The position numbers and the translations under genes were made by a program. Shown here piece after piece: positions 11,894 through 46,020 of a stretch of 64,000 nt of DNA. Under the pieces are notes generated by a model. It ran no database searches. It was not told the DNA's origin and saw nothing but the letters and a program-made list of their open reading frames with translations. The stretch covers positions 1-64,000 of the forward strand of contig JBCBZW010000006.1 of the NCBI GenBank assembly GCA_039815145.1. The letters are read 5' to 3'. How positions within the stretch are numbered: position 1 is the first letter of the stretch; every line of letters begins with the position of its first letter. The DNA is from Pseudomonadota bacterium (GTDB lineage: Bacteria; Pseudomonadota; Gammaproteobacteria; Steroidobacterales; JBCBZW01).

Positions 11894-11896
11894 GCG

Positions 11897-13264
11897 ATGG
11901 CCACGCCCGTCAACAGCATCGTCACCCGTCAGGGGCGCCAGCACGCCGGCATGCCGCGTGCCCGGGCCCGCTACCTGGTGCAAGCCCTCTCCCTCGAGGA
12001 GCGCGACAACACCAGCTTGATCAGCCAGGGCATCCTGCTCACGACGGTGCTGCTGATCGGGTTGATCGTGTGGTCTGCCTTCACCGAGGTGAACGAGATC
12101 GCCCGGACCTCCGGCGAAGTCGTGCCGGCGGGTCTGGTGCAATCGATCCAGCACCTCGAGGGCGGCATCGTCGCCGAGCTCCAGGTGAACAACGGCGCCC
12201 GCGTGCAGGCCGGTGATGTGCTCCTGCAGATCGCCGATGCGGGAGCGCGCAGCGAACTCGCCCAGCTGGCGACCCGGCGCGCGTCCCTGGACCTGCGCAT
12301 GCGTCGTCTCGATGCCCTCCTCGCCGGTGAAGAGCCGGACTACGATGGGCTCCAGGCACCCTACACCGCGGAGATGATCGCGCTCCAACGCGAGGTGTTC
12401 ACCACCCAGCGCAGCAGCGGTCTCGCCCAGCTGCAGCTGATCCGCGCCGAGCGCGGTCGCCTACTCGAGGAGCGCGCGGCGAGGGCCGCCCGCGTCGACG
12501 CGCTGATGCGCGAGGTCGCCCTCGTGCGCGGCGAACAGGAGCGCCAAGAGGTCTTATTAGCTCGCCAGTTGGTGGCCGCGGCGGACGTGACCAACGTGCG
12601 CTTGACCGCCCTGCGCACCCAGGGCGATCTGCACCAGGCCCAGGGCGAGTGGGGATCGCTGCAGCGCCAGATCGAGGCCAGCGAGCAACGCGAGCAGGAG
12701 CTGCGCAGCCGCCGGCGCGAGGGCTGGAACCTCGAACGCGAGGAGGTCAAGGCGAACCTCGATGAGGTGCAGGCGCGCCTCGCGGCCCTGCGCGATCGCA
12801 CGGAGCGCCTGGACCTGCGCGCGACCGTGGATGGCGTGGTGCAAGCCCTCGCCGTGAGCGGTCCGGGAGCGGTCATTCAGCCTGGTCAGACCGTGCTTCA
12901 GATCGTGCCCGGCGAGGGCCGCATGTTGGTCCATGCCCGGGTGTCGCCGGACGACATCGGCCACCTGGTGGTGGGCCAATCCGTGGACGTGAAGGTGAGC
13001 AGCTTCGAGCCCCAGCGCTACGGCACCCTGGTCGGCGAGCTGACCCAGGTCTCCCCGTCGACCCAGCTCAACGAGGAACGCCAGCCCTACTACGAAGCTC
13101 ACATCGAGCTACAGCACCTCTACCTTGGCAACGATCCCGCCAAGCACCAGCTGGTGCCGGGCATGCTGGTGCAGGCCGATATCATCACCGGCCGTAAGAG
13201 CATCCTCGACTACCTCCTGAAACCCGTCTACCGCGGTTTCAGCGGAGCCCTGAAGGAACGCTGA
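11897..13264 (+). CDS. HlyD-family type I secretion adaptor
   Basis: A 455-residue periplasmic adaptor, LapC/PrtE-like. One N-terminal membrane segment (about residues 38-58, ILLTTVLLIGLIVWSAFTEV) is followed by a lipoyl-like half (HLEGGIVAELQVNNGARVQAGD), a long charged helical hairpin (about 120-300), the second lipoyl half (VDGVVQALAVSGPGAVIQPG) and a beta-barrel C terminus with the family sequence LVPGMLVQADIITG. It starts 3 bp after the second ABC gene and closes the secretion operon. It should bridge the ABC pump to an outer-membrane TolC-type channel, which is not encoded in the window. No LapD/LapG-type release genes are visible. Confidence 0.9.
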   Translation: MATPVNSIVTRQGRQHAGMPRARARYLVQALSLEERDNTSLISQGILLTTVLLIGLIVWSAFTEVNEIARTSGEVVPAGLVQSIQHLEGGIVAELQVNNGARVQAGDVLLQIADAGARSELAQLATRRASLDLRMRRLDALLAGEEPDYDGLQAPYTAEMIALQREVFTTQRSSGLAQLQLIRAERGRLLEERAARAARVDALMREVALVRGEQERQEVLLARQLVAAADVTNVRLTALRTQGDLHQAQGEWGSLQRQIEASEQREQELRSRRREGWNLEREEVKANLDEVQARLAALRDRTERLDLRATVDGVVQALAVSGPGAVIQPGQTVLQIVPGEGRMLVHARVSPDDIGHLVVGQSVDVKVSSFEPQRYGTLVGELTQVSPSTQLNEERQPYYEAHIELQHLYLGNDPAKHQLVPGMLVQADIITGRKSILDYLLKPVYRGFSGALKER

Positions 13265-19019: not shown

Positions 19020-20789
19020 ATGAACCGTGACGCTGAGCTGACGCCAACGGGATTCAACGACGAACTGCCCCTGCGGAGCGATGGCTTCGCCAACCTCGTG
19101 GAAGCACTCGACTACGCCGCTCAGGGTAAGGCCGGGTACAACTTCTACGACGGCAAGGGCGCTTTGGAACATCGCCTCACGCACGCCGACCTGCGCCAGG
19201 AAGCGCAGCTGTTGGCGCGTAAGCTGCTGGGCCTCGGCCTGCAGCGGGGTGATCGCGTTGCCATCGTGGCCGAGACCGATCCGCTGTTCATCCGCTTCTT
19301 CTTCGCTGCCCAGTACGCTGGGTTGCTGCCGGTGGCATTGCCCGCTGGCCTGCAGCTCGGTGGCGGGGAAGCGTGGGTGAGGCAGATCCGCCAGATGCTG
19401 ATGTCGTGCGACGCCGCGGTTGCGGTGGCGCCGTCGTCCCATGCCGCCCTCCTCGACTCTGCATGCGAGGGACTCGATCTGGTCCTCGCCGGTGAAGCGG
19501 ACGCATTCGATGCGCTCCCGGCGGATTACGACCTACCCTTCCAGCCGTTCACGGGCGATGAGCCGGCGTACCTGCAGTACACCTCCGGGAGCACGCAGTT
19601 CCCGCGCGGTGTCGAGGTATCGCAATCGGCGGCACTCACCAACCTGCGAGAGATCTGCCGGTACGGCCTGAAGCTCACGAGTAAAGATCGTTTCGTCGGC
19701 TGGTTGCCGTTCTATCACGACATGGGCCTGGTCGGTTTCGTCCTCGTGCCCCTCGGCAGCCAACTCTCGGCGGACTACTTGAGCCCGCGCACCTTCGCCA
19801 TGCGTCCACGCTTGTGGCTGAAGCTGCTGTCGGACAATCGCGGCACCATCTCCTCCAGCCCGCCCTTCGGCTACGCCCTCGTGGCGAAGCGTTTGCGGGT
19901 GGCGGATAGCGAGCGCTACGACCTGTCCAACTGGCGGGCCGCCTGCGTGGGCGCCGAGCGCGTGCCCCGCGGCCCCCTCGAGCAGTTCGCCAAGCTGCTC
20001 AAGGACGCCAAGTTCGATCCGAAGGCCTTCGTGCCCTGCTACGGCATGGCCGAGTGCGCCCTCGCCGTCAGCTTCGTGCAGATGGACCACGGCGTGAGCA
20101 TCGACACGGTCGATAAGATCGAGATGACGGACCTCGGCAAGGCTACGCCTGTAGCCGCGGACCATCCGGACGATCAGACCCTCGAGTTCGTTGACTGCGG
20201 CAACCTCCTGCCCAGCTACGAGCTGGCGATCCGCGACGATGAGGGCAATGAACTCCCCGAGCGCACCTGTGGGCGGATCTGCCTGCGCGGGCCCTCGGTG
20301 ATGACCGGCTACTTCCGTGATCCGGAAGCCACCGCAGCCGTGCTCTCCGAAGACGGCTGGCTGGATACGGGCGACATCGGCTACCGCATCGGCGAGCAGC
20401 TGGTCATCACGGCCCGTCGCAAGGACGTGATCATCATCAACGGTCGCAACATCTGGCCACAGGATCTCGAGTACATCGCGGAGAGCTCGCCAAAGGTGCG
20501 CATGGGCAACGTGTCCGCCTTCTCGGTAAACGAAAGCGACGGCCCCGAGAGCGTGGTGATCGTGGTGGAGTCCCGCCATCAGGATGCGGAGCTCGCCGAG
20601 GAGATCGTCGAACGGGTGCAGAAGCAGTTCGGCATTCGCGTCCACGTCGACCTCGTGCCCCCGCGCACCCTACCGCGCACCTCGTCGGGCAAGCTGTCGC
20701 GCTCACGCGCCAAGCTCGATCATCTCGAGCGTCAGGCAGCTAAGACTCCTGTTCACCAGGACTTCGCTACCAGCGGCAGCGTTGCCTGA
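19020..20789 (+). CDS. Fatty acyl-AMP ligase / acyl-ACP synthetase (sphingolipid locus)
   Basis: A 589-residue adenylate-forming enzyme of the FAAL type. The AMP-binding loop YTSGSTQFPRGVEV starts at residue 187. GWLPFYHDMGLVGFVL is typical of FAALs. The hinge/C-terminal motifs GWLDTGDIGYR (about 446) and RRKDVIIINGRNIWPQDLE follow. Such enzymes activate a fatty acid as acyl-AMP and load it onto an acyl carrier protein; an ACP gene is two genes downstream. It leads a tight operon: the next gene starts at the base after its stop. From memory of the Caulobacter ceramide cluster, an acyl-ACP synthetase of this kind accompanies spt, acp and cerR there, so I assign it to ceramide synthesis. Which acyl chain it loads (for SPT or for the ceramide synthase) is inference. 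Confidence 0.87.
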   Translation: MNRDAELTPTGFNDELPLRSDGFANLVEALDYAAQGKAGYNFYDGKGALEHRLTHADLRQEAQLLARKLLGLGLQRGDRVAIVAETDPLFIRFFFAAQYAGLLPVALPAGLQLGGGEAWVRQIRQMLMSCDAAVAVAPSSHAALLDSACEGLDLVLAGEADAFDALPADYDLPFQPFTGDEPAYLQYTSGSTQFPRGVEVSQSAALTNLREICRYGLKLTSKDRFVGWLPFYHDMGLVGFVLVPLGSQLSADYLSPRTFAMRPRLWLKLLSDNRGTISSSPPFGYALVAKRLRVADSERYDLSNWRAACVGAERVPRGPLEQFAKLLKDAKFDPKAFVPCYGMAECALAVSFVQMDHGVSIDTVDKIEMTDLGKATPVAADHPDDQTLEFVDCGNLLPSYELAIRDDEGNELPERTCGRICLRGPSVMTGYFRDPEATAAVLSEDGWLDTGDIGYRIGEQLVITARRKDVIIINGRNIWPQDLEYIAESSPKVRMGNVSAFSVNESDGPESVVIVVESRHQDAELAEEIVERVQKQFGIRVHVDLVPPRTLPRTSSGKLSRSRAKLDHLERQAAKTPVHQDFATSGSVA

Positions 20790-21713
20790 TTGCACATCGC
20801 ACTGACCGGGGCGACCGGCTTCATCGGTCGCCGCCTGCAACGTGCCCTGCTTCCCCTCGACCATCGGCTGACCGCCCTCGTCCGCCCCGACCAACACCAG
20901 CGGCGCCCTGAACTGCAGGCGGGCGTCGAGCAAGCGCCTTTCGATCAACTCGACGTAGACGCCTGGCGTAGCCTCCTCGACCGCGAGGACGCCCCGGAGG
21001 TGCTGCTGCTGCTCGCCGGCGCCGTTCGAGGGCGCACCTTCGAACAGTTCGCCGAGGTCAACGAGCGCCCCTTCAGGGCCCTCGCCAGCGCCTTGGCCGG
21101 CCGCGCTGACCCGCCCCGCGTCCTGCTAATGTCATCCCTCGCCGCCAGCCAACCCAGCTTGTCGCCCTACGCGGCGAGCAAGCGGGCCGGCGAAGACGCC
21201 TTGCGCGACCGTGCGGTCACCGTACTGCGCCCACCCGCCGTCTACGGCCCTGGCGATCGCGAGCTGGCTGCCCTGTTCGAGACCATCCACAGCGGCTGGG
21301 TGCCGCGCCCGGGGCCGGCCGATCAGCGCATCTGCTTCCTCCACGCGGACGACCTCGCCAGCGCCGTGATCGCCTGGCTGCAGCGGACCCCAGGGCCCGA
21401 CCTGCAGGAGATCTTCGCCCTCCACGACGGCGCCCCCGATGGCTACTCCTGGCCGCAGATCGCCGCCGCGATCGCCCCGCACAAGCGAGCGCACATCCTG
21501 CCCGTACCGAGCGCCGTGCTGCGCGCGGTGGCGACGGCCAACCTGCTGGCGGCCACCGCCCTGCGATACTCCCCGATGCTCACTCCCGGCAAGGTGAGAG
21601 AGCTGGGACACCCTCGCTGGCTCTGCGATAATCGCGCCTTCACGGAAGCGACTGGCTGGACGCCGGCGGTGGATCTGGCCACCGGCACGGCGCGCCTGAG
21701 GAGCGACACCTGA
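20790..21713 (+). CDS. NAD-dependent epimerase/dehydratase-like reductase (CerR-like)
   Basis: A 307-residue extended SDR-fold protein. The TTG at 20790 directly follows the upstream stop and gives the nucleotide-binding motif GATGFIGRR at residues 7-15, so no other start fits. The catalytic YxxxK is YAASK at residues 127-131, followed by RPPAVYGPGDREL. By position between the acyl-AMP ligase and the ACP and next to serine palmitoyltransferase, it matches the reductase (CerR) of bacterial ceramide clusters, which acts on the keto group left by SPT. In bacteria this step is proposed to occur after N-acylation. The SDR assignment is firm; the substrate is inferred from neighbours. An alternative is a sugar-nucleotide epimerase, but no sugar genes are adjacent. 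Confidence 0.82.
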   Translation: MHIALTGATGFIGRRLQRALLPLDHRLTALVRPDQHQRRPELQAGVEQAPFDQLDVDAWRSLLDREDAPEVLLLLAGAVRGRTFEQFAEVNERPFRALASALAGRADPPRVLLMSSLAASQPSLSPYAASKRAGEDALRDRAVTVLRPPAVYGPGDRELAALFETIHSGWVPRPGPADQRICFLHADDLASAVIAWLQRTPGPDLQEIFALHDGAPDGYSWPQIAAAIAPHKRAHILPVPSAVLRAVATANLLAATALRYSPMLTPGKVRELGHPRWLCDNRAFTEATGWTPAVDLATGTARLRSDT

Positions 21714-21714
21714 G

Positions 21715-21951
21715 ATGACTGAGATCGAACAAACCTTGAGCGAACTGCTCAGCGGCTTCCTCACCGAGGGGCAGAACATGATCGACGCCGCCACGCCCAT
21801 CAACACGCTGGGGCTCGAGTCGGTGGTGATCATGCAGTTCGTCGCCGAGGTGGAAGACCACTTCGATATCAACATCGATCTCGACAGCCTGGCGCAGATT
21901 CACACGCTGAACGACCTGGCCAAGGTCGTCGTCACGCAGGGGGGCGCATGA
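21715..21951 (+). CDS. Acyl carrier protein (sphingolipid-specific)
   Basis: A 78-residue acidic four-helix carrier protein. The phosphopantetheine attachment site is Ser36 in LGLESVVIM, a variant of the DSL motif with Glu before the Ser. It starts one base after the reductase stop and overlaps the SPT gene by 4 bp (ATGA). A dedicated ACP next to a FAAL and an SPT implies acyl-ACP rather than acyl-CoA as the donor in this pathway, as in other bacterial ceramide clusters. Distinct from housekeeping AcpP, which normally sits with fab genes. Confidence 0.88.
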   Translation: MTEIEQTLSELLSGFLTEGQNMIDAATPINTLGLESVVIMQFVAEVEDHFDINIDLDSLAQIHTLNDLAKVVVTQGGA

Positions 21952-23141
21952 GCCTGCTGGAGAAGTTCGCGCAGACGCGCGCCAAGCGCGACGCGCTCGC
22001 GCAGATGCCGATCAACCCCGTGGCGGTGCCGATCGAGCGAGCGATCGATGCCACCACTGCGCAGATCGACGGGCGCGAAGTCATCATGGCAGGCACCAAC
22101 AACTACCTGGGCCTGACCTTCGAGCAGGAGTGTATCGAGGCTGGGCAACGCGCCCTCGCCGAGTTTGGCACCGGCACTACCGGCTCGCGCGTGGCCAACG
22201 GTAACTACACGGACCACGAGGCCCTCGAGCAAGACCTAGCGGATTTCTTCGGTTACCCCTACTCCATGCTTTTCTCCACGGGCTACGGGGCGAACCTCGG
22301 TACCATCGCCGCCCTCGTCGGGCCGGGCGATTGTGTGATGCTCGACGCCGACGCCCACGCGAGCCTCTACGACGCCTGCCGCCTCTCCGGTGCCGACGTT
22401 TTCCGCTTCCGCCACAACGATCACGCGGATCTCGACAAGCGCTTACGGCGCTTGGGCGAGCGCGCGAAGCGCACCCTCGTCGCCATCGAGGGGCTCTACT
22501 CCATCCTCGGGGACTACCCCTCTCTCGAACCCTTCTGTGAGGTGTGCGAGCGCTACGGCGCGCTGCTGCTGGTGGATGAAGCCCACTCCCTCGGCACCAT
22601 GGGCGAGCATGGCCGGGGCTTGGCGGAAGCCGACGGTGTCCTCGACCGGGTGGACTTCCTGGTGGGCACGTTCTCCAAGAGTCTCGGCGCCACCGGCGGC
22701 TTTTGCGTGAGCCGCCACGAGGAGCTCTCCCTCTTCCGCTACACCTCGCGCCCGTTTATCTTCACCGCCTCACCCTGCCCCTCCGTGGTCGCCAGCACAC
22801 GTGCAGCCCTGCGCCTGCTGCGCACGCAGCCGGAGCGCCGCGAACGCCTGTGGCAGCACGCGCGCGGCCTGTACGAGAGCTTCACAGCCCTCGGCCTGAC
22901 CCTGGGTCCGCAGCCCTCGCCCGTGGTGGCGGTGCGCTGCCCCAGCGCGGAGGCAGCCCTAGGCGTGTGGCAGCGGCTACTCGAGCACGGCGTCTACACA
23001 AACCTCATCGTGCCGCCCGCCTCGCCCGACGGCTCGAGCCTGATTCGCTGCAGCCTGAGTGCGGCGCATCGGCCCGAACAGGTGGAGACCATCAAGCACG
23101 CGATGGCGGCCGCCACCGCGGATCTGATCGCGGCGGCCTGA
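21948..23141 (+). CDS. spt: Serine palmitoyltransferase (alpha-oxoamine synthase family)
   Basis: A 397-residue PLP enzyme of the AONS/KBL/SPT family. The PLP lysine is K244 in TFSKSLGATGGF; DEAHSLGTMGEHGRG and GSRVANGNYTDHEALE are further family motifs, and DAHASLYDACRLSGA marks the substrate pocket. It condenses an amino acid, here probably serine, with an acyl thioester to give a 3-keto sphingoid base. The ATG overlaps the ACP stop. SPT rather than biotin synthesis KAPA synthase is favoured because FAAL, ACP and reductase precede it, no bio genes are near, and ceramide-pathway candidates lie downstream. First committed enzyme of the sphingolipid pathway, cytoplasmic. Confidence 0.85.
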   Translation: MSLLEKFAQTRAKRDALAQMPINPVAVPIERAIDATTAQIDGREVIMAGTNNYLGLTFEQECIEAGQRALAEFGTGTTGSRVANGNYTDHEALEQDLADFFGYPYSMLFSTGYGANLGTIAALVGPGDCVMLDADAHASLYDACRLSGADVFRFRHNDHADLDKRLRRLGERAKRTLVAIEGLYSILGDYPSLEPFCEVCERYGALLLVDEAHSLGTMGEHGRGLAEADGVLDRVDFLVGTFSKSLGATGGFCVSRHEELSLFRYTSRPFIFTASPCPSVVASTRAALRLLRTQPERRERLWQHARGLYESFTALGLTLGPQPSPVVAVRCPSAEAALGVWQRLLEHGVYTNLIVPPASPDGSSLIRCSLSAAHRPEQVETIKHAMAAATADLIAAA

Positions 23142-23149
23142 GCGCCGAC

Positions 23150-23440
23150 TTAGCGGAAGGCGCCCTTGCGATAGAGGCGCCAGAACAGTGGCCAGGCGAA
23201 CAGCAGGGGCCAGCGACGCTGTAGGGGCGTCGGCTCCTCGTAGATGCCGGAGTGACGCTCGATCTTCCACAGCAGGTAATCGAAGCCGTCGTTGAAGGTG
23301 AACGCGGCCTTTAGCAGGCGCGCGACGCTAAGGCCCTTACCCCAAGCCTCGCGCAACGGCCAGCGCCAGCCACCGGCCAGGGGCGCGACCGGCCACCGGG
23401 GAGCCTCCTCCTGCTCCGCTCGGGGCGCCTCCCGCCACAT
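23150..23440 (-). CDS. C-terminal part of frameshifted nucleotidyltransferase-fold protein
   Basis: A 96-codon frame that resumes where the upstream frame (23311-24138) turns to Arg-rich nonsense. It contains FNDGFDYLLWKIERHSG and ends RRWPLLFAWPLFWRLYRKGAFR, which resembles the conserved tail I associate with this nucleotidyltransferase family. The two frames are related by a one-base deletion, because 989 nt plus 1 gives 330 codons. The ATG at 23440 could be a genuine independent start, but no clear ribosome site precedes it. I therefore read it as the displaced 3' end of one gene of about 329 residues. Confidence 0.6.
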   Translation of the reverse strand: MWREAPRAEQEEAPRWPVAPLAGGWRWPLREAWGKGLSVARLLKAAFTFNDGFDYLLWKIERHSGIYEEPTPLQRRWPLLFAWPLFWRLYRKGAFR

Positions 23441-24138
23441 GCCTCGGCGAGCGCCATCAGGTACTCCCGGTTGCGCTCCACCAGTTGCGCGGCGCGTTGG
23501 CCACTTTCAGCTCGCAGCTCACAGCGATAGGTGCTGGATAGAGCGTGCTCCCACAGCGCTTGCGGCGAGGACGCGGCATCGGGCAAACCTCGCCGGCCTT
23601 CCGTGAGCATCCGACGCACCGCGCCAGCGAGAGCCTCCTCGAGGCGCGCGGCGATGCCCGCATCCTCCACGTAGAGCACGCGGCAAGGTTGGGCGAAGCG
23701 CGCCCAGAAATAGGGGTGGAAATCGCGGCGTAGGTGGCGCTCGAAGGCTGTCAGCGGCAGCAGGGCGTACTTGCAACGCGCGCCCGTCGACACGCTGAGC
23801 TGGTACACGTTCGGCGCCAGCACGCGGTTAGCCACGCGCTGCCAGTGCGGTAGTGCCGCCGAGGGGATATCGCCTTCGGTCAGCACGTAGAGGTCGATCA
23901 GCGTGTCGCGCTCCCCCCGCGTGTAGGACCCGTACAACAGCACAGCCCGCAGTGCGTTGCCGTAGCGCGCGCGCAGGGCGGCGAACAGCGCGACCAAATC
24001 GGCATCGTCATGCTGCAACTCGGGGGAGCCGCGCGTGGCTTGCGCCAGGCCGATCTTCTCGCCGATGAGCGTTGGTAGCTCAGCTGAGGCAGAAGACTCA
24101 GGGCGCAGGGGCGGCGCTATCGGCATCGTGCTGCGCAT
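23311..24138 (-). CDS. Nucleotidyltransferase-fold protein, N-terminal part (frameshifted)
   Basis: The N-terminal portion carries the polymerase-beta-like nucleotidyltransferase pattern GSYTRGERDTLIDLYVL. The usual Dx[DE] pair is incomplete: Leu occupies the first Asp position (LIDL). Real coding probably stops near base 23430; after MALAEACGG the frame becomes Arg/Gly-rich, and the conserved tail continues in the other frame (23150-23440). The start overlaps the end of the upstream CDP-alcohol transferase gene by 41 bp (ATG 24138) or 29 bp (ATG 24126), so the two are probably co-transcribed. Context suggests a role in sphingolipid headgroup assembly; activity is uncertain given both the frameshift and the missing Asp. 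Sequencing error is a real alternative. Confidence 0.65.
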   Translation of the reverse strand: MRSTMPIAPPLRPESSASAELPTLIGEKIGLAQATRGSPELQHDDADLVALFAALRARYGNALRAVLLYGSYTRGERDTLIDLYVLTEGDIPSAALPHWQRVANRVLAPNVYQLSVSTGARCKYALLPLTAFERHLRRDFHPYFWARFAQPCRVLYVEDAGIAARLEEALAGAVRRMLTEGRRGLPDAASSPQALWEHALSSTYRCELRAESGQRAAQLVERNREYLMALAEACGGRRPERSRRRLPGGRSRPWPVAGAGRCARLGVRALASRAC

Positions 24139-25327
24139 CGCCGTAGGCGGAGCGCGTCCCGGAGAAACGTCGGAAAGCCTGCGGGTGGGTCGCTGCTGCC
24201 CGGGTCGGATCAGCGAGCCAGGAGCGCAGGGGTCCGTGGCGCGAACGCGACCACACCGCTTGGCCCAGGCGCGCGAACAACAAGGCGGTGCTGGCGAGGG
24301 TCCAGAGGACCACCGCGTAGAAGCCCCAGTCCGGTCGCTGCACGAGCACCGCCGCGCTGAGGAGGATCAGGCTGGGGTTGCGGCGCGCAGTGATGAGCCG
24401 GTTGTAGGCGTCGAAGGGACGCCACGCGAAGAGCGAACACTCGCCGATGAGATCGAACAGGCCTTCGGCGATGCGCCCACCGACGTAGCCCAACACCACC
24501 CATAGGTTCCAGGTGGCGAGCGACACGCCCCACAGGGGCTCCGCCACCACGCCCGCGAGGGACATGCCCCAGAAGACGTACCAGAACGGCGGGTGGATGA
24601 TGTCCATCCCGTGGTCGAGCGCGTGCCCGAACTTGGAAGACTGGATCGTCACCCGGGCAAGCTTGCCGTCCACCGTGTCCAGGAAGGTCATGATCCAACC
24701 GCTGATGAGGCCGAGGGCGTACTGGCCCTGGTAGAACCACCAACAGCTCGCCAGCATGAGGGCGAAGCCTGTGAGCGTGACCATGTTCGGCGTGATCCCC
24801 GCACGCGCGCACCAGCCGACCACCACGCGGGCGGGTCGCGGCCACCACCACTTGGTGACGAGATCCGTGATGCCCTTGTAGGCGTTGCCGTAGAGCACGC
24901 TCTCCAAGCGATCCCGAGAGGTGGCATCCACCTTGGCCAACAGCGGCGGCTCGGCCTTGCGGAGCATGCCGTCGAAGGCATTCAGGTCGCTCGTCTCGAG
25001 GACACTTAAGCCCTCCACCTGCTGCTCGACGATCGCGGCGTGGCCGCGAGCAGCGTCATCGCCGGCGACCAAGGCCGCGGCGAGACCGCCGTCCTCACTC
25101 GCCCGCAGCGCATGACCGACACCGGCATCGTGCAGCCCCCGGAGGGTGCGCGGTTCGAAGAGATAGCTCGCGTGCACCACAAGTAGGGGATGCTCGAGGG
25201 CGGATGACGGCAGCTCGTCGAGGCGTTCGAAGGCGGTGAACTGACGGAGCTGGCGGGCGACCCGGGTGGTCGCGTCGAGGCCCCACAGGGGCATCGCCGC
25301 TTCGCCGACTATGTGCACGTAGATCAC
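24098..25327 (-). CDS. CDP-alcohol phosphatidyltransferase with extra N-terminal domain
   Basis: A 409-residue protein with a GTG start (MIYVHIVGEAA). The C-terminal membrane half contains the complete family motif D-x2-DG-x2-AR-x8-G-x3-D-x3-D, seen as LDTVDGKLAR then GHALDHGMD, from about residue 217. The first 190 or so residues are soluble and unassigned. This order resembles bifunctional proteins that carry a nucleotidyltransferase-like domain before the transferase, but no GxGxR motif is visible. The reaction expected is transfer of a phospho-alcohol from a CDP-activated donor to an alcohol acceptor in the inner membrane. With ceramide genes on both sides, a ceramide headgroup or its precursor is the likely product. 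The divergent metallophosphoesterase starts 84 bp away. Confidence 0.83.
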   Translation of the reverse strand: MIYVHIVGEAAMPLWGLDATTRVARQLRQFTAFERLDELPSSALEHPLLVVHASYLFEPRTLRGLHDAGVGHALRASEDGGLAAALVAGDDAARGHAAIVEQQVEGLSVLETSDLNAFDGMLRKAEPPLLAKVDATSRDRLESVLYGNAYKGITDLVTKWWWPRPARVVVGWCARAGITPNMVTLTGFALMLASCWWFYQGQYALGLISGWIMTFLDTVDGKLARVTIQSSKFGHALDHGMDIIHPPFWYVFWGMSLAGVVAEPLWGVSLATWNLWVVLGYVGGRIAEGLFDLIGECSLFAWRPFDAYNRLITARRNPSLILLSAAVLVQRPDWGFYAVVLWTLASTALLFARLGQAVWSRSRHGPLRSWLADPTRAAATHPQAFRRFSGTRSAYGDAQHDADSAAPAP

Positions 25328-25392
25328 GGTGTTATCGTTCGCCTCAACAAGCTTCGCTGGCGTTGATACCTAGCGCGAAGCAAACGCCCGAG

Positions 25393-25398
25393 TATAAC
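25393..25398 (+). promoter_or_regulatory. Possible -10 box (TATAAC) before metallophosphoesterase
   Basis: TATAAC matches the sigma-70 -10 consensus at five of six positions in an otherwise GC-rich divergent gap. No convincing -35 lies 16-18 bp upstream. A start site some 7 nt downstream would leave a leader of only about 7 nt, and no Shine-Dalgarno is visible before the ATG. Confidence 0.35.
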
Positions 25399-25411
25399 GC
25401 CTCCCATCCCA

Positions 25412-26302
25412 ATGCCGTTCACGCTCGCCCATCTCAGCGACACGCACACCACCGATCTCAGCGGCGTGCGTCCCGCCCAACTGCTCGGCAAGCGCCTGCT
25501 CGGCTACCTGTCCTGGCGCCGCCGACGCCGCCACGAGCACAGCATGCGCATGCTCCAGGCCAGCGCCGACGCGGCCCTGGCGCAAGCGCCAGACGTCATG
25601 GTGATCAGCGGCGACCTGCTGCACATCGGCCTGGCCGAAGAGATGCGCCAGATTCGCGGCTGGCTCGAAGCCTTGAGCAGCGAGGTGCCGGTGTTCCTGG
25701 TGCCAGGCAACCACGACTTCTATCGCGCCGATTCCATCCCCGCGTGGCAGCGCGAACTCGGCGATCTGAACGTCTTCGGCACACCGGTCGGTGACGCGCC
25801 CTGGCCATCAGTACTCGAGCTGCCAGGCGTCCGGCTGATCGGCCTCAATAGCGCCTACGCCGCACCGCTGACCCAGGCGGATGGTTGCCTCGGCGCCGCC
25901 CAGTTGGACGCCTTGCGCGCGCTCTTGGACGCCCCGTGCGAGGCCCCCACGGTGCTGGTCGTGCATCACCCGGCCGACTCCTCGCTCTGTGCCGCACGAA
26001 AGGCCCTGCGCGATGCTCCAGCGCTCGCGGAGCTGTTGGCCGAGTACTCCCCCACCCTGCTGTTGCACGGCCATCTGCACAAGCCGCTGGCCTATCGCGT
26101 CGGCCCCGTGCCCTGCTACTGCGCGCCCTCCGCCTCCAGCGAGCACGAGCGGCATCGCGCCGGCTTTCACGTCTTCCGCCTGATGGCGGACCGCACCGAC
26201 GCCGTAGACGCCACGCTCTACCTGGCAGAAGCCGCGCAAGCGCCCTGCCGCTTCACGGCGCACGCCCGTCCGATCGACACCGCGACCGCTACGCCACGCT
26301 GA
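25412..26302 (+). CDS. Calcineurin-like metallophosphoesterase
   Basis: A 296-residue enzyme with all metal-binding blocks in order: HLSDTH (residues 6-11), ISGDLLH, PGNHDFY, VHHPA and LLHGHLHKP. It is probably cytoplasmic, since no signal peptide is seen. The ATG at 25412 lies 14 bp after a TATAAC box, so its leader may be very short. It is the only + strand gene between the two - strand groups of the sphingolipid locus, convergent with the lptG-like gene (12-bp gap). Plausible role: dephosphorylation of a lipid or headgroup intermediate, by analogy with phosphatases in phospholipid and inositol-lipid pathways. Substrate not determinable from sequence. Confidence 0.85.
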   Translation: MPFTLAHLSDTHTTDLSGVRPAQLLGKRLLGYLSWRRRRRHEHSMRMLQASADAALAQAPDVMVISGDLLHIGLAEEMRQIRGWLEALSSEVPVFLVPGNHDFYRADSIPAWQRELGDLNVFGTPVGDAPWPSVLELPGVRLIGLNSAYAAPLTQADGCLGAAQLDALRALLDAPCEAPTVLVVHHPADSSLCAARKALRDAPALAELLAEYSPTLLLHGHLHKPLAYRVGPVPCYCAPSASSEHERHRAGFHVFRLMADRTDAVDATLYLAEAAQAPCRFTAHARPIDTATATPR

Positions 26303-26314
26303 TCAGCGAATCCC

Positions 26315-27418
26315 TTAGCCTTCGCTCATGCGCCAAAGCCAGACGCCCAGCAAACTCAGGATGATGAGCTCCGGCGCCAGGGACAGCACCATAGGATGCA
26401 GGCGGTAGATCACCGCGAGGTGCACGCTCACCTGCTCGACCAGGTAGAACGCGACCCCCGCGATCACCCCGAAGGTCACGCGCTCACCGATCGGCAAGAC
26501 ACGCGTGTTACCGAAGACGAAGGGCAAGGCCAGCAGCATCATCGCGAGGGACGCCAGGGGTAAGCTCAGGCGCTGCCACAGCAGCACCCGAAGCCCGTGT
26601 ACATCGAGGGCGTTAGCGCGGGCGTGGCCGATGCGGGCGCTGAGGTCGAACAGGCTCAAGGAAGCTGCCGGCGCCACCAGCGTGTCGAGCCCACCGACGG
26701 GGAGATCCACCTCGCGGGCTTCGCCGGCGAGGCTGCGATCGGCCACCGGCGCATCCTGAGCCACCGATAGCACGCGAACGTTCTGCAGCTCCCACTGCGC
26801 GCGATCGATCACGCGCGCCGATACAGCCTGACGCACGCTCACGAGCGAGTCGTCCTCGAAGGCGTAGATCTCCACGTCCTGTAGTAGCGCGCCGTCCGGT
26901 TCGCCGTCCACGCGGATGATCTGCTGACGGCTTCGCGTCCAGAAGTCCGCTTCGCCTGGCACTGGATCAGCCGCACCATCCGCCTCGCTCGCCACCACCT
27001 CCTGCTCCGTCTCCGCCTTGTCGCGCAATCGCTGCGCCTCGCGCTCGGCCAAGGGCACGACGAACTGCGCGGCCAACAGGAGCGCCACGCCCACTGCCAG
27101 CGCCGTGAGAATGGGGCCGCGCATGAGCTGCAGGGGCGATCGCCCGATCGCTCGCGCGGCCGTCAGCTCACTATGGCCCGCCAAGCCGCCGATGCCGATG
27201 AGGGCCCCGAGCAGGAGCATCACCGGCAACAGATCCAGCAAACGATTCGGCAAGGTGAGCCCGACGACGGCGAGCGCATCGGTGGCGCTGTACAGGCCCT
27301 TGCCGACATCTTCCAGTTCCTCGGCCAGGGCCAGGAAGCTGAACAGGGCGAGGAGCATCAAGGTCACCGGCAACAGGGCCTTGATCATGCTGGTGATGAG
27401 GTAGAGGTGCAGGCGCAC
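26315..27418 (-). CDS. lptG: LptG-like permease (YjgP/YjgQ family)
   Basis: A 367-residue membrane protein. The GTG at 27418 overlaps the lptF-like stop by one base (taGTG) and yields the family N terminus LITSMIKALLPVTLMLLALF; the longer upstream open frame is antisense-like, Arg/His-rich and rejected. The fold is the LptFG type: N-terminal membrane segments, a periplasmic beta-jellyroll (about residues 120-260) and three C-terminal membrane segments, with the family motif ELTAARAIGRSPLQLM after the second segment. Classical LptG pairs with LptF and LptB to extract lipopolysaccharide. Here the pair lies inside a sphingolipid locus, so it may be a paralogue that moves a sphingolipid instead, or the only copy serving both. 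Confidence 0.85.
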   Translation of the reverse strand: MRLHLYLITSMIKALLPVTLMLLALFSFLALAEELEDVGKGLYSATDALAVVGLTLPNRLLDLLPVMLLLGALIGIGGLAGHSELTAARAIGRSPLQLMRGPILTALAVGVALLLAAQFVVPLAEREAQRLRDKAETEQEVVASEADGAADPVPGEADFWTRSRQQIIRVDGEPDGALLQDVEIYAFEDDSLVSVRQAVSARVIDRAQWELQNVRVLSVAQDAPVADRSLAGEAREVDLPVGGLDTLVAPAASLSLFDLSARIGHARANALDVHGLRVLLWQRLSLPLASLAMMLLALPFVFGNTRVLPIGERVTFGVIAGVAFYLVEQVSVHLAVIYRLHPMVLSLAPELIILSLLGVWLWRMSEG

Positions 27419-28470
27419 TAGAGCTTGCCGCCTCGCCAGGGTTTGTAGGCCACCACCACGGCCACGGTAAGCAAGGCGGGCACCCAGAAAATGGTCGGCA
27501 GGCGCTCCTGCTCCACCCAGGTGCGGGCCATGCCGATGAGGATGTAGTACACCGCGTACAGCCCAACGGCGATCATCACCTTCGAGTAGCGCCCCTGGCG
27601 CGGCAGGCTGTGACTCAAGGGGATGGCCAGCAGCGCCAGGAGCATCACCGAAATGCCCGTGGAGAGGCGCCACTGGTACTCGGCCTGATCGTCACCCACC
27701 GTGGACCGGGACAGATCGGCGGAAGTGGCGGACTTCGCCTTGTAGGGAGGTGTCTCCGGCACCGCCGCCGCCAGGGTCAAGCGCAGCGCTGAAAACTCTC
27801 CGACCACGTCGAACTCGCCATCTTCGATGCGAAACACGCGGGCGTTTTCCAGCTGCAGTTCGTGATCGGTGGGCGTGACGAACTCTTCCACATGGCCCCT
27901 GGCCGACGCGATCACCTCCACCCGATCGGCCACCCGCGTGCGCACGAAGATGCCGCGCAGATCGCCCGGTTGGCGGCCCCGGGCGCGCACGTACACGGTG
28001 CGGTCCTGATCGTCGTAGTGATAGAACTGGCCCGGCTTGATGCGCTCGAGCTCATCGCTCGCCTCCGCCTCGGCCTTCAGCTGGTAGATGCTCGCGTAGG
28101 CCCAGGGGCGCACCAAGAGGGAGCCGACGGCGGTAACTAGCGCCACCACTAGCGCGAGGACGACGATCGGCCGCATCAGGCGCAGCCGGGACATGCCGGC
28201 ACTGCGCAAGGCGTCCATCTCGCTGTCGCTGTACAGCTGCCCGAGGCCGACCACGATGGCCACGTAGAGGCTGATCGGAATCAACACCTCCAGGGCGATG
28301 ATGCCGCGCAGGGCGGTGATCTGAAGCACCTCGGACATGCTGAGCAAACCCGTGGCCGCGTCGGTGAGAAAACGGGTCAGGCTGTAGGTGACGAACAGGG
28401 ACACGAACAGCCCGATGATCAGGAGCATCGGGCTGGCGATGTGCCGGGTGATATAGCGGTCGACGATCAC
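27418..28470 (-). CDS. lptF: LptF-like permease (YjgP/YjgQ family)
   Basis: A 350-residue partner of the adjacent LptG-like protein, with a GTG start at 28470. N-terminal segments (PMLLIIGLFVSLFVTYSL) precede the cytoplasmic coupling motif YSDSEMDALRSAGMSRLRLM, a periplasmic jellyroll from about residue 130 to 245, and C-terminal membrane segments (LSTGISVMLLALLAIPLSHS). By family it forms a heterodimeric ABC permease with LptG and takes energy from a separate LptB-type ATPase, which is not in the window. Position directly after a HIT gene and a nucleotidyltransferase of the sphingolipid locus suggests co-transcription with lipid synthesis. Confidence 0.87.
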   Translation of the reverse strand: MIVDRYITRHIASPMLLIIGLFVSLFVTYSLTRFLTDAATGLLSMSEVLQITALRGIIALEVLIPISLYVAIVVGLGQLYSDSEMDALRSAGMSRLRLMRPIVVLALVVALVTAVGSLLVRPWAYASIYQLKAEAEASDELERIKPGQFYHYDDQDRTVYVRARGRQPGDLRGIFVRTRVADRVEVIASARGHVEEFVTPTDHELQLENARVFRIEDGEFDVVGEFSALRLTLAAAVPETPPYKAKSATSADLSRSTVGDDQAEYQWRLSTGISVMLLALLAIPLSHSLPRQGRYSKVMIAVGLYAVYYILIGMARTWVEQERLPTIFWVPALLTVAVVVAYKPWRGGKL

Positions 28471-28486
28471 GCGGCGGCCGATCGAT

Positions 28487-28912
28487 TCACCAGCGCGCGC
28501 GCAGGTCCGTGATCAGCGCATCGTTCTGCGCGGACGTGGTGGCGGTGGGCTCACCCAACGCTGGCAGGGCCGGCCACCCTGCATCGGCAAATTCGATGCC
28601 GGCGAAGCTGCGCGGCGTCGCGTACCGTGGCAACACGTGGTAGTGCACGTGCGGGTCCACCATCATCAGCATGAGGTAGTTGATCTTCTCGTACTGCACG
28701 AACTCGCCCAGCACCCGTTCGATGTCACTCACCACACGGTGTCGTTCGGCGATCGCGGCTGGCGAGAGATCGGAGAAACGCATCGCTGCGCTGCGGGCGG
28801 CGAGCACCAGGGAGCCGAGGGTCACCTGCTTCGGGCGCAGCAGTACGCACCAGTGCTCGTACTCGTGGACGAGCGTCTGGGGGTAGCCGAACTTGGTCAT
28901 CGTCTCGTTCAT
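28487..28912 (-). CDS. HIT-family nucleotide hydrolase/transferase
   Basis: A 141-residue soluble protein with the histidine triad HVHYHVLPR (His88, His90, His92), the active-site signature of the HIT superfamily. Length is typical. It lies 16 bp upstream of the lptF-like gene and 34 bp downstream of a nucleotidyltransferase gene on the same strand. HIT enzymes cleave or transfer nucleoside monophosphates; in a pathway that uses nucleotide-activated headgroups it could hydrolyse or recycle a CDP- or ADP-linked intermediate. That link is inference from position. Confidence 0.87.
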   Translation of the reverse strand: MNETMTKFGYPQTLVHEYEHWCVLLRPKQVTLGSLVLAARSAAMRFSDLSPAAIAERHRVVSDIERVLGEFVQYEKINYLMLMMVDPHVHYHVLPRYATPRSFAGIEFADAGWPALPALGEPTATTSAQNDALITDLRARW

Positions 28913-28946
28913 CTAGACCCTTCTCCCTGCACCGACGCTGACAGTA

Positions 28947-29678
28947 CTAGCGTGTCGGCCAGGTGGTGACCACCGTCGCCGCGTGTGCCAGGTCTGCCGC
29001 ATCGTCGATTTCGCACCAGCTCAAGCCCTCGATGGAACATACCCCGACGTGCCCCGTGGGCGCCAAGGCATCGATGGCGGACAGGTACCAGCGCTTTAGA
29101 CCACTTTCATCGCGCATCATTCGATCGAGTTGGGCACTGAAGATGGCCGGGCCCTCACCGCGGAAGGTCATCAGCCCGATCGACTCGGCGTTGACCGGCG
29201 CATCACCGAGCTGCTTGCCGACGCGCTCCAGGCGCCCGCCCTGCTCCACCACCTTCATATCATCATCGTCGTACTCCGCCTTGCGATCGATGCAGAGCGT
29301 CACCGCATGGTCCGCCGGGGAGTCCAGGAGCCGTTGTAGCACCGCCGCCTCGAACAGGGTGTCGCCGTTCATGATCACGAAATCCCCAGTCATCTCCGGG
29401 CGCGCCAACCAGCAGGTGCCGAGGTTGTCGCAGGCCGCGTAGAAGGGATTGTGGGTGGTGCGCACGGGCACGCCGGTGAAGGCGTCGGTGATGGCCTGAA
29501 CCACGGGCGCGCGGAACCCGGTCATCACCACCACCTCGTCGATGGCGGTCTGGGCGATCTGGCTGAGCTGCCACTCGAGGGCGGTGCGGCCGGCGACATC
29601 CAAGGCGCACTTCGGCGTGTTTTCGGTCAGGGGCAGTAGGCGTCGACCCTGGCCGGCGCTGAGTATGATGGCTTTCAA
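28947..29678 (-). CDS. Nucleotidyltransferase (sugar-1-P / alditol-P NTP transferase type)
   Basis: TTG at 29678 is chosen because AGGAG lies 6 nt upstream and the protein then begins LKAIILSAGQGRRLLPLT, where the GxGxR nucleotide-binding loop must be N-terminal. Product of 243 residues; KCALDV holds the conserved Lys, and MNGDTLFE is the metal-binding GD motif. Family members make NDP-activated sugars, phosphocholine, inositol phosphate or phosphoglycerate. Beside a CDP-alcohol phosphatidyltransferase, a lipid kinase and ceramide genes, the best guess is a cytidylyltransferase that activates the sphingolipid headgroup. Identity of the headgroup cannot be read from sequence. Confidence 0.85.
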   Translation of the reverse strand: MKAIILSAGQGRRLLPLTENTPKCALDVAGRTALEWQLSQIAQTAIDEVVVMTGFRAPVVQAITDAFTGVPVRTTHNPFYAACDNLGTCWLARPEMTGDFVIMNGDTLFEAAVLQRLLDSPADHAVTLCIDRKAEYDDDDMKVVEQGGRLERVGKQLGDAPVNAESIGLMTFRGEGPAIFSAQLDRMMRDESGLKRWYLSAIDALAPTGHVGVCSIEGLSWCEIDDAADLAHAATVVTTWPTR

Positions 29679-29775
29679 CGCGTCTCCTGAGATTTCCCTA
29701 GACGAAAGCCGGCCATGATAACAAGTCGGACGCCTCTCTTTCACCGTGAAGGGCCGTCGACCGCCGGACCGCGCG

Positions 29776-30771
29776 CTACAGAATAAGGAACTCCGGCGCC
29801 CAGTCCGCGTCCACCTTCAGCGGGCTGTCCGGCGCGGTGAACACTTCGCCATCGATCGCGTAGCTAGCAGGTCGCGGCGCCTGCCCAGCGCTCGCGAAGC
29901 GCAACGCCAAGCGATGGCAGTTGTGGCTGTGGTAGCCGGCGTCAGCGCTCGGACGCGCCACGCCGGGCAGCCCCAACAGGCCCCCTAGATGGCGCACCAA
30001 CCGGGCCGATCGCTCGACCAGGGTGAAGCGCACGGCGCCCTCCTCTCGGCCCCAGTGGGGGCGTGCGCCCACGAGCAGCCGATCCAGGGTGGACACAGCG
30101 AGCACCGTGGCACCTGCGCTAGGCGCCAAGCGGATCGCTTGGGCCCCGTCACCGAAGGCCTCCAGGGTAAGCGGCAAGGGCGAGTCGAAGGGGGCTTCCG
30201 CCCGCAGCACCCCTAGCACGGTACGGGCCATGGCCAGGCCGGCGGTGAGTTCACGCCGGGCTGCACCCTCCGCCCACAGGCGACGGTTACAGTAGTCGAT
30301 CCCTTCGACCACCGCCCCTGCACCCAGAAAAAAACCCGCTTGCACACCGCCAGGCGGGTACGCCCTCAGGACGGGGCGACGAGCGAACTCCTTAAGCGCC
30401 GCCCCCTCCCTGGCCACCTCAGCCAGCACGGCAGCCGCCGCCGACCAGCGATGATGGCGATTGATGTCGCGCGCCGACATGTTAGTCGAGCCACCTGGGA
30501 GGACGGCGAGACGCGGGCACGCCAGCCCATGAGCATCGCGCTCAGCAAGCAAAGCCAATAGGGCCTGGAGACTGCCGTCACCCCCGCTGATCGCGATCAG
30601 ATCTTCGCCGGCGCCATCGAACGCCCGCACCGAGCTCGCCATGTGCTCGGCGCTCTCGGTGAGCACCAGACGCACGTGAGGTGCCTGCGGCAACAGCGCC
30701 TGCAGGGCCTGCGCGCGTTCCGCCTTGCCACCGGCGCCCGCGTTGCAGAGGCAGAGGACGCGCATGCTCAC
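29776..30771 (-). CDS. Diacylglycerol/sphingosine-kinase-family lipid kinase
   Basis: A 331-residue lipid kinase of the DAGK catalytic family. The ATP-site motif is ISGGDGSLQ (about residues 61-69), followed by LPGGSTNMSARDI in place of the usual PLGTGND loop. It starts with GTG at 30771, overlapping the upstream stop (GTGA); an ATG two codons later is the alternative. The Caulobacter ceramide cluster, from memory, includes a ceramide kinase (CpgB) of this family, so ceramide is the likely substrate and ceramide-1-phosphate the product. Diacylglycerol remains possible. The enzyme is probably peripheral to the inner membrane. Confidence 0.84.
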   Translation of the reverse strand: MSMRVLCLCNAGAGGKAERAQALQALLPQAPHVRLVLTESAEHMASSVRAFDGAGEDLIAISGGDGSLQALLALLAERDAHGLACPRLAVLPGGSTNMSARDINRHHRWSAAAAVLAEVAREGAALKEFARRPVLRAYPPGGVQAGFFLGAGAVVEGIDYCNRRLWAEGAARRELTAGLAMARTVLGVLRAEAPFDSPLPLTLEAFGDGAQAIRLAPSAGATVLAVSTLDRLLVGARPHWGREEGAVRFTLVERSARLVRHLGGLLGLPGVARPSADAGYHSHNCHRLALRFASAGQAPRPASYAIDGEVFTAPDSPLKVDADWAPEFLIL

Positions 30772-31568
30772 GCGTCCCTCGTGGCCGCCCGTTCGCGCAA
30801 CACGTGTTCGGCCAAGGTGAAGTCAGCGGGCGAATCCACGTCGACGGCAAGCTCTGCGCTGTCGAGTAACACGGAGCGAATCGTGGCATCGCACTGCTTG
30901 CCCACGTGCGACAGGGCATCGTCGCGCTTGAGGCGGCCCGCGAGGTAACGCACCAGCACGGTGGGTCCGAGCTGGCGAGCCATGCGCAGGGGGTGCTTGC
31001 GCATGGTCTCCAGCGACTGCCAGAAACGCAGCACGCGCAGGGCCCTCGGCGTACGCAGAAAAAACAGGTTGCTGCCGCAGCATTCACCGTCGTGAAAGCG
31101 CAGCCACGTGCGCTGACTGTGGGGAAACCGCTCGCGTACGCGATCGGCGAGCACCATGCCGACGACCACGTCCGCGCCCGTCATGGCTTGCGCCTTGGTG
31201 CAGAAATCGCGAACCGACGATGACTGCAGCAACGCGTGATCGGCGCTTGTGAGCAACAGGGGCCAGGTGCCCGCGTGTTCCGCGGCGGCGATGGCACTCG
31301 CCGCCGGCCCTCGCGCGGGTGCCACCCAATCCACATCCTCGCGCTCGCGCCAACGGCGCACGGCCGGGCTCTCCGAGAGGCCGGCGCCCGGGCCCACCAG
31401 CAGGGTCCGTTCGATACCGCTCTGCGTGATGGCGCCCATGGCCCAGTCGATCAGGACGCGGCCTTCGAGTTCCATCAGCAGCGCGCTGCGCACGCCGTGA
31501 GCGCGCGCCAGGGTATTGCCGCCGGGCCGCTCCCCCGCCAACACGACGGCCACCGGCGGCAGGCTCAC
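30768..31568 (-). CDS. MobA-like nucleotidyltransferase
   Basis: GTG at 31568 overlaps the ceramide synthase stop (GTGA) and gives an N terminus SLPPVAVVLAGERPGGNTLA, where the NTP-binding loop is expected; the longer upstream frame is antisense to coding sequence and rejected. Product of 266 residues. MELEGRVLIDWAMGAI and LLLTSADHALL match the NTP_transf_3 fold. The usual Lys after the loop is replaced (RSALLMELEG). It sits between the ceramide synthase and the lipid kinase with overlaps on both sides, so the three are translationally coupled. It probably activates a headgroup precursor. Confidence 0.78.
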   Translation of the reverse strand: MSLPPVAVVLAGERPGGNTLARAHGVRSALLMELEGRVLIDWAMGAITQSGIERTLLVGPGAGLSESPAVRRWREREDVDWVAPARGPAASAIAAAEHAGTWPLLLTSADHALLQSSSVRDFCTKAQAMTGADVVVGMVLADRVRERFPHSQRTWLRFHDGECCGSNLFFLRTPRALRVLRFWQSLETMRKHPLRMARQLGPTVLVRYLAGRLKRDDALSHVGKQCDATIRSVLLDSAELAVDVDSPADFTLAEHVLRERAATRDA

Positions 31569-32713
31569 AGGTCGCACGAATACATGCGATAGCGCTTGGA
31601 CACCTTGCCGCCGATCGACTCGATGATGCTGCGCATGCCGTCGTTGGACTCGAGGATCCAGGACAACTCCGTGCGCGTGATGCCGCGGGCGATCGCCGGC
31701 TCCTTCAATGCGTGAATGAGGGCGAAGGAGAGGCCGGGCCCGAGGCGGGTGAAGTGGAACTCGCGGCGCACGCCCATGAGGGGCACGCGGCCGCTGCGCA
31801 GGGGCCCCCGCTTCAGGCGCCACAGGAGCTTCGCCCAGCCGAAGGGCAACAGGGCGCCATCGAGATCGGCGATGTGCGCGTTAACGTTCGGCAGCAGCAC
31901 GATGAAGGCCACGCCACGCCCGTCGATCTCCGCGATGCGCAGAAACTCCGGCGGCGTGATCATCAACATCTCCTTGCCGATCGTGCGGAACTCCTCCTCG
32001 GTGAAGGGCACGAAGCTCCAGTTGTCGCTCCAGGCGTCGTTGAAGATGTCGCGCATGAGCTCGAGTTCCTCATCGAGCTTGCGCTTGTCGATACCCCGCA
32101 GCGTAAGCCCCTTCAGGTAGCGCTTACGCAGGCGCTCGTGCACCGGCGGTACGACGTAGGTGTCCGTGTCGATCTCGTAGGCCAGCATGTCCTGGGCGCC
32201 GGCGAACCCGGCTGCCTCGATACGCCCGGCGTAGTAGAGGCGGTGATGGCCCATCATGAAGTAGGGCGGGCTGTCGAAGCCGTCCACGAGCACACCCACC
32301 TCCTGGTTCACGTTGAGGTTGAAGGGGCCGAGGGCGCGCGTGCGCTGGCGCTCGCGCAACCAGTGCTTGGCCACCTCGAAGAGACCGTCGAAGTAGTCCT
32401 GGTCGTCCGGCGCCTCGAGCATGCCGAAGAAGCCCACCGGCTCCCCGTAGCGCGCCTCGTAGAGCTCGTCGATCTGCGCCGTGATCCTGCCGACCGGCGT
32501 GCCCCCATCGTCGTAGGCCACCCAGCCCTGCCACTGCAGGTGATCGAACACCGGCGCCTTCGGCGACAGGGCATCCTTGCGCTCGAAGCGCAGGGGCGGG
32601 ATCCAGTGGGGGTCGTCTTGGTACAGGGCCCAGGGCACGCGCACAAAGTCGTCAAGGGTGGCGTGCTCGGCGCCACCGCTCGCCCCTTTGGGGCTTAAGG
32701 GTTTGATCTGCAT
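31565..32713 (-). CDS. GNAT-fold N-acyltransferase, candidate bacterial ceramide synthase (bCerS)
   Basis: A 382-residue protein read from ATG 32713 (MQIKPLSPK). Motifs such as VPWALYQDDPHWIPPL, RITAQIDELY, GFFGMLEAPDDQDYF and GPFNLNVNQEVGVLVDGFD match the family of long GNAT-type acyltransferases to which Caulobacter bCerS (CCNA_01212, from memory) belongs. ELSWILESNDGMRSIIESIG is the acyl-donor-site end of the GNAT fold. Expected reaction: N-acylation of the SPT product, giving ceramide or keto-ceramide, at the inner membrane. It is the first gene of the - strand operon that continues with a nucleotidyltransferase and lipid kinase. No Shine-Dalgarno precedes the ATG; a TACAAT box ends 7 nt upstream. 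Alternatives within the family exist, but the locus supports this call. Confidence 0.78.
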   Translation of the reverse strand: MQIKPLSPKGASGGAEHATLDDFVRVPWALYQDDPHWIPPLRFERKDALSPKAPVFDHLQWQGWVAYDDGGTPVGRITAQIDELYEARYGEPVGFFGMLEAPDDQDYFDGLFEVAKHWLRERQRTRALGPFNLNVNQEVGVLVDGFDSPPYFMMGHHRLYYAGRIEAAGFAGAQDMLAYEIDTDTYVVPPVHERLRKRYLKGLTLRGIDKRKLDEELELMRDIFNDAWSDNWSFVPFTEEEFRTIGKEMLMITPPEFLRIAEIDGRGVAFIVLLPNVNAHIADLDGALLPFGWAKLLWRLKRGPLRSGRVPLMGVRREFHFTRLGPGLSFALIHALKEPAIARGITRTELSWILESNDGMRSIIESIGGKVSKRYRMYSCDL

Positions 32714-43013: not shown

Positions 43014-43041
43014 CTCGACTCGTCTTCGCTCGGGCCCGTGC

Positions 43042-46016: not shown

Positions 46017-46020
46017 GCGA

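Follow-up and report, generated by a model that had tools for sequence, protein, structure and literature searches.

Gene content and order of the locus

The window analysed here, a stretch of 64,000 nucleotides on contig 6 of a 6.0 Mb draft genome (295 contigs), contains at positions 19020-32713 a locus of 14 genes that is predicted to make and export a phosphosphingolipid. It comprises five genes for ceramide synthesis, a headgroup set, a gene of the HIT family and a second LptF/LptG permease pair (Table 1). Four of the ceramide genes, encoding a fatty acyl-AMP ligase (AasR), an SDR-type reductase (CerR), an acyl carrier protein (AcpR) and a serine palmitoyltransferase (Spt), form the tight plus-strand operon described in the original prediction, with neighbours that abut or overlap from 19020 to 23141. 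The fifth, bCerS, lies on the minus strand 8.4 kb from the stop codon of Spt and leads the run bCerS-cofC-cpgB-cpgD-HIT-lptF2-lptG2, which is followed beyond the phosphoesterase gene by cpgA and cpgC. All families that had been named for the intervening region were found in their places, with two refinements: the Tam41-type gene is broken by a frameshift, and the metallophosphoesterase gene is located on the plus strand inside the minus-strand block. The Cpg names follow PMC12275187 and were paired here with the CC numbers of Caulobacter through the common ceramide-kinase and spt genes. Orthology to the Caulobacter genes was set by gene order, family models and the Azotobacter proteins.

Table 1. 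Genes of the predicted sphingolipid locus in the window
Feature	Position	Strand	Evidence
AasR, fatty acyl-AMP ligase, predicted loader of sphingolipid acyl carrier protein	19020..20789	+	NF006624 711 bits (cut-off 600); congener 97% identity
CerR, SDR-type ceramide reductase	20790..21713	+	PF01370; congener 81%; Azotobacter vinelandii cerR ~42%, equal operon position
AcpR, specialised acyl carrier protein	21715..21951	+	PF00550 4e-11; flanked by cerR and spt, as in many loci
Spt, serine palmitoyltransferase	21948..23141	+	NF047599 563 bits (cut-off 500); bioF 322 (cut-off 426); PDB 2x8u
CpgC (CC_1161-type), Tam41-family nucleotidyltransferase	23150..24138 (pieces 23311-24138 and 23150-23440)	-	one-base frameshift near 23420
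CpgA (CC_1159-type), CDP-alcohol phosphotransferase	24098..25327	-	PF01066 3e-11; A. vinelandii cpgA 43%; gene order
Metallophosphoesterase, CC_1158-type by position	25412..26302	+	PF00149; equal place in alphaproteobacterial loci
LptG2, second LptG permease	26315..27418	-	TIGR04408 264 bits (cut-off 240); tree
LptF2, second LptF permease	27418..28470	-	TIGR04407 292 bits (cut-off 230); tree SH-aLRT 100
HIT-family protein, CC_1157-type by position	28487..28912	-	PF01230; PDB 2oik; HVHYHVLP triad intact
CpgD (CC_1152-type), predicted CTP:phosphoglycerate cytidylyltransferase	28947..29744	-	NTP_transferase; nearest solved relative LicC 1jyk
CpgB (CC_1160-type), predicted ceramide kinase	29776..30771	-	PF00781 2e-13; GGDGS motif; A. 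vinelandii cpgB 34%
CofC/MobA-like nucleotidyltransferase (CC_1153-type)	30768..31568	-	PF12804 3e-9; GTG start overlaps bCerS stop
bCerS, predicted bacterial ceramide synthase, tandem GNAT fold	31565..32713	-	relatives' neighbourhoods; predicted fold

Among the genomes searched, just one other belongs to the same family, a congener (G001) that carries all 14 genes with order and orientation unchanged and amino-acid identities of 49-97%. Since the order is kept over this range of identity, the locus is not a chance arrangement. The congener shares the layout of the window, and variants of it occur in dozens of gammaproteobacterial genomes. A neighbourhood survey, which had been suggested together with the original prediction, showed that the gene families recur with cerS across 105 loci; many of these end at contig ends, and the counts are therefore lower bounds. 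A CofC-like gene was present in at least 80 loci, an Lpt permease in at least 59, cpgC and the phosphoesterase in at least 49 each, and cpgA in at least 33. All 14 families were found in the window, in the congener and in one gammaproteobacterial metagenome-assembled genome (MAG; locus L084), and partial sets in some 100 loci. In six loci (L028, L048, L050, L053, L055, L101), the same gene run contains approximately 3 kb of additional sequence between cpgB and cpgD. The locus also occurs beyond the alpha-, beta- and gammaproteobacteria, namely in the Olavius-associated proteobacterium Delta 1 (L077) and in Desulfobacterota (L059, L079), two of these cases having two CpgD-like genes.

Ceramide synthesis and headgroup genes

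By the curated family model, Spt is a serine palmitoyltransferase (SPT): it passes the cut-off of the SPT equivalog and stays below that of the bioF model (Table 1), its nearest solved structures are SPTs (2x8u, 6.6e-115), and the motif GTFSKS with the pyridoxal phosphate (PLP)-binding lysine is present. KAPA synthase (BioF) and glycine C-acetyltransferase (Kbl) belong to the same PLP-enzyme superfamily, and either identity would place the locus in another pathway. Given the equivalog scores, the SPTs as nearest structures and the linkage to bCerS and CerR, this is scarcely credible. Moreover, the second match of the genome to the SPT model is located elsewhere and is itself Kbl (618 bits, cut-off 460). 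Both identities were rejected, including the KAPA synthase that had been named in advance as the finding that would overturn the prediction.

The acyltransferase heading the minus-strand run had been labelled GNAT-type, a label that is invisible to Pfam. bCerS matched no Pfam or NCBIfam family, and its sequence gave chance-level matches only against the PDB. The label is right, because a structure model of moderate confidence (pLDDT 67) resembles tandem GNAT acyltransferases (best Foldseek E 3e-13). At least 578 relatives were detected in bacterial and archaeal genomes, the best 80 at 47-67% identity, and the majority of the relatives, including that of A. vinelandii, adjoin spt, acp, cerR, aasR or cofC. 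Proteins whose genes adjoin spt, cerR, acp and aasR in many genomes, and to which it is 48-67% identical, support its assignment as a bacterial ceramide synthase, as does the fold model.

The Tam41-like protein, taken singly as the window fragment or as the intact congener copy, likewise matched no Pfam or NCBIfam family. However, 16 of 26 CpgC relatives hit PF09139, the model for Tam41 phosphatidate cytidylyltransferase, with 1.1e-8 as the best value, and a CpgC profile finds Tam41 in the PDB (6ig2, 9.7e-5). Structure prediction was performed with the intact copy of the congener, and the five best Foldseek matches of the resulting fold (pLDDT 87) were all Tam41, including 7ecd. Judged from profiles and modelled fold, CpgC belongs to the Tam41 family of CDP-lipid synthases; a CDP-diacylglycerol-synthase domain had already been remarked in CC_1161 (PMC11324152). 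In view of this family membership, the CTP-dependent activation of ceramide-1-phosphate is the likely step of CpgC, and CDP-ceramide would be its product.

The reading frame of the window cpgC breaks near 23420, with the first ~230 residues in one frame and the last ~80 in a second one; aligned with its congener counterpart, the gene has a one-base gap at this site. If the break is real, the locus may be decaying and the organism may end its synthesis at ceramide or ceramide-1-phosphate. We consider this unlikely. The congener copy is intact, so that the frameshift probably either arose recently or reflects an error of the assembly. The other 13 genes of the locus have intact frames. The changes relative to the congener fall on third codon positions in 99 of 170 cases before the break and in 19 of 32 after it, an excess on both sides which indicates that selection acted on cpgC up to the very recent past. 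Another gene of the window is broken in the same way, a subtilase with a PA domain (59533-60843 and 60840-63947, plus strand, split at about 60790), whose congener counterpart is a single frame of 1472 aa (L223:4889-9307) with 93-96% identity on either side of the break. Two frame breaks in 64 kb suggest indel errors in the draft, and a real recent mutation of cpgC may be the alternative.

Among the other headgroup proteins, CpgA has ~170 additional N-terminal residues, and CpgB belongs to the DAGK family. The window CpgD, whose Caulobacter counterpart was demonstrated to be a CTP:phosphoglycerate cytidylyltransferase (PMC12275187), has the CTP:phosphocholine cytidylyltransferase LicC as its nearest solved structure. 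The phosphoesterase is present in the window locus, unlike in the published gammaproteobacterial examples. It is conceivable that these families, with changed specificity, attach another phospho-headgroup to ceramide, for instance another phospho-alcohol. Nucleotidyltransferases and CDP-alcohol phosphotransferases have varied substrates, the CofC-like gene evolves fast, and the equivalent of CpgD Thr88, which reads cytosine according to the published structures and residue roles (PMC13228409), is a Cys in the window protein. On the other hand, the equivalents of R16, K26, N90, T93, N110, G111 and D112 are conserved, CpgD is 51% identical to that of A. vinelandii, and the gene set and order equal those of loci for ceramide diphosphoglycerate (CPG2), which makes a different headgroup improbable.

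The HIT gene was found in at least 17 of the 105 cerS loci. It occupies three different positions, always within the locus, and this speaks for a place in the pathway, whereas CC_1157, the Caulobacter gene at this position, has been called probably unrelated (PMC11324152). Being conserved, it is a candidate for the headgroup pathway, still incomplete, that can be tested.

A second pair of LptF/LptG permeases

The genome possesses two LptFG pairs, a canonical one beside pepA-holC-valS and that of the window, in addition to one LptD and one LptB above the curated cut-off and a single LptC, with no second copy in the genome. Since LptF2 and LptG2 both pass the equivalog models for lipopolysaccharide (LPS) export, the window pair might be an ordinary LPS exporter that happens to adjoin sphingolipid genes. 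This is very unlikely. When 48 LptF proteins were placed in a tree, that of the window fell into a clade (SH-aLRT 100) of 23 proteins encoded in sphingolipid loci, most of them gammaproteobacterial, apart from the canonical LptF of its own genome, and the pair at pepA-holC-valS groups with canonical permeases; the LptG tree gives the same grouping with weaker support. On the basis of this pair and of the trees, the window permeases were rejected as the canonical LPS LptFG. The gammaproteobacterial sphingolipid LptF proteins share an Arg at position 119 of the window LptF2 (40 of 40) that is absent from canonical LptF. They furthermore have a Lys or Arg at 244, also absent from canonical LptF, and lack an Arg that is invariant there (12 of 12).

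In the free tree, the gammaproteobacterial sphingolipid LptF group adjoins the gammaproteobacterial canonical LptF. A single common clade of alpha- and gammaproteobacterial sphingolipid LptF was not rejected by the approximately unbiased (AU) test (p 0.133), and these permeases may or may not share one origin. As has been suggested for Azotobacter, the cluster may have been acquired as a whole from alphaproteobacteria; the free tree speaks against such a transfer, the AU value does not. Transport of the sphingolipid by LptF2/LptG2, proposed earlier for Caulobacter, would fit the gene context. As a tentative and, taken as a whole, doubtful proposal, LptF2/LptG2 might be an LptF/LptG paralogue born in the gammaproteobacteria, with altered cargo-facing residues and using the shared LptB, LptC and LptD as one bridge for an acidic sphingolipid as well as LPS; the HIT protein might be a missing headgroup enzyme.

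In alphaproteobacterial loci L175, L176, L183, L180 and L191 (genomes G254, G408, G161, G331, G199), the sole LptFG pair sits in the sphingolipid locus, and in three bCerS-bearing alphaproteobacterial genomes (G134, G348, G426) no LptFG was found. These observations bear on LPS-free, sphingolipid-based outer membranes.

Proposed pathway and comparison with known loci

In the proposed pathway, AasR would activate a fatty acid and load it onto AcpR, and Spt would condense the acyl-AcpR with serine to 3-oxosphinganine, which bCerS would N-acylate before CerR reduces the product to (dihydro)ceramide. Phosphorylation of the ceramide by CpgB would be followed by activation of ceramide-1-phosphate as CDP-ceramide by CpgC, the Tam41-type cytidylyltransferase, towards ceramide phosphoglycerate (CPG). 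CpgD is expected to make CDP-glycerate, from which CpgA would transfer a second phosphoglycerate to give CPG2, the CofC-like enzyme and the phosphoesterase assisting. The reactions of CpgC and CpgA, the product in this organism and its transport are inferred. Finally, LptF2/LptG2 would extract the sphingolipid from the inner membrane, sharing the single LptB ATPase, LptC and LptD with LPS.

We estimate the probability at roughly 0.87 that an anionic phosphosphingolipid like the CPG/CPG2 of Caulobacter is made by the locus and transported to the outer membrane. The predicted product is ceramide (di)phosphoglycerate, which has been reported from Caulobacter and is also predicted for Azotobacter. 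The view that ceramide synthesis, headgroup attachment and export permeases form one module in a probable gammaproteobacterium, as first proposed, is the best reading and is supported. Several findings weigh against it. As assembled, cpgC is out of frame, and a real break would stop headgroup synthesis at ceramide-1-phosphate. The CofC-like protein shares just 49% identity with that of the congener and gave no tblastn match with the CofC-like protein of A. vinelandii, so that its orthology rests on profile and position. The LptC2 and flippase genes of Caulobacter have no counterpart in the window locus; LptC2 is absent from the published gammaproteobacterial members too (PMC11324152) and hence does not define the gammaproteobacterial form. 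The locus had originally been called apparently complete, a description that has to be qualified with regard to the cpgC frame and the LptC2 and flippase genes.

The locus adds another gammaproteobacterial lineage to those with a CPG2-type pathway and export permeases of its own, and more than 570 genomic stretches encoding a bCerS relative illustrate how common the pathway is. The route of sphingolipids to the outer membrane is stated to be unknown in the literature, and in organisms with one LptB/LptC/LptD and two LptFG pairs it would be simple to test whether a second lipid can travel over the Lpt bridge. This question of shared-bridge export, the HIT gene and the Tam41-type step are worth following. 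Elsewhere in the window, a plus-strand region (15-13264) encodes a 2583-aa protein that combines ~16 cadherin domains with RTX calcium-binding repeats. Two ABC transporters and an HlyD-family protein come next, and the whole looks like an adhesin with its own type I secretion system. An exosortase-linked exopolysaccharide cluster on the minus strand (38774-50840) comprises an exosortase EpsH/DUF3485 protein, a TPR protein, glycosyltransferases and an O-antigen-ligase-like protein.

The same cluster, with second copies of LptC/F/G, is known from Caulobacter, and A. vinelandii and P. luteola are predicted to have it as well (PMC11324152). In Caulobacter it spans CC_1168-CC_1152 and includes the five ceramide genes along with CC_1161 (CpgC), the ceramide kinase CC_1160 (CpgB), CC_1159 (CpgA), the phosphoesterase CC_1158, CC_1157, CC_1156/1155 (LptF2/G2), CC_1154 (CerS), the CofC-like CC_1153 and CC_1152 (CpgD) (PMC11324152). 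There, the five ceramide genes and the chemistry of CpgB and CpgD have been demonstrated, as has a genetic requirement for CpgA, CpgC, CC_1153 and, in part, CC_1158. Fourteen of the 17 genes of this Caulobacter crescentus cluster, CC_1165-CC_1152, are matched here one by one, including LptF2/LptG2, the gene at the CC_1157 position and the phosphoesterase (PMC11324152; PMC12275187). In contrast to Caulobacter, the window locus is without counterparts of LptC2, CC_1167 and the flippase, the frame of its cpgC is broken in the assembly, and its cofC, cpgB, cpgD, HIT, lptF2 and lptG2 form one minus-strand run led by bCerS. Alphaproteobacterial loci have spt, then cpgC-cpgB-cpgA, then phosphoesterase-HIT-lptF2-lptG2-cerS-cofC; in L182 and L189, cpgC, cpgB, cpgA, the phosphoesterase, HIT, two Lpt permeases, cerS and cofC stand in the published Caulobacter order.

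In genomes of Pantoea, Serratia and Erwinia (L082, L086, L093, L094, L100), the five ceramide genes are present, but the 10 kb around bCerS contain none of the Cpg genes for the headgroup, and the headgroup is therefore probably a different one. The locus of A. vinelandii (L106; PMC11324152) resembles that of the window in being gammaproteobacterial and contiguous and in having the same ceramide and Cpg genes and LptF2/G2, with 34-57% identity to the window spt, cpgA, cpgB, cpgD and cerS and to the congener cpgC. It differs in gene order, with bCerS divergent from the spt operon, and in that no phosphoesterase or HIT gene was found in it. The canonical LptFG of LPS export share the protein family and the presumed extraction mechanism with the window pair but form a separate clade. 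The same gene families as in the window occur in MAG loci L084, L060, L061, L038 and L032. All but L084, which has the 14 families in another order, share the layout bCerS-cofC-cpgD-lptF2-lptG2, phosphoesterase, cpgA-cpgC with the window. The gammaproteobacterial MAG loci differ in that HIT or cpgB is sometimes undetected and the spt operon sometimes lies beyond the fetched stretch. The window locus is thus a new and unusually full gammaproteobacterial case of an already published kind of locus rather than a new kind of system.

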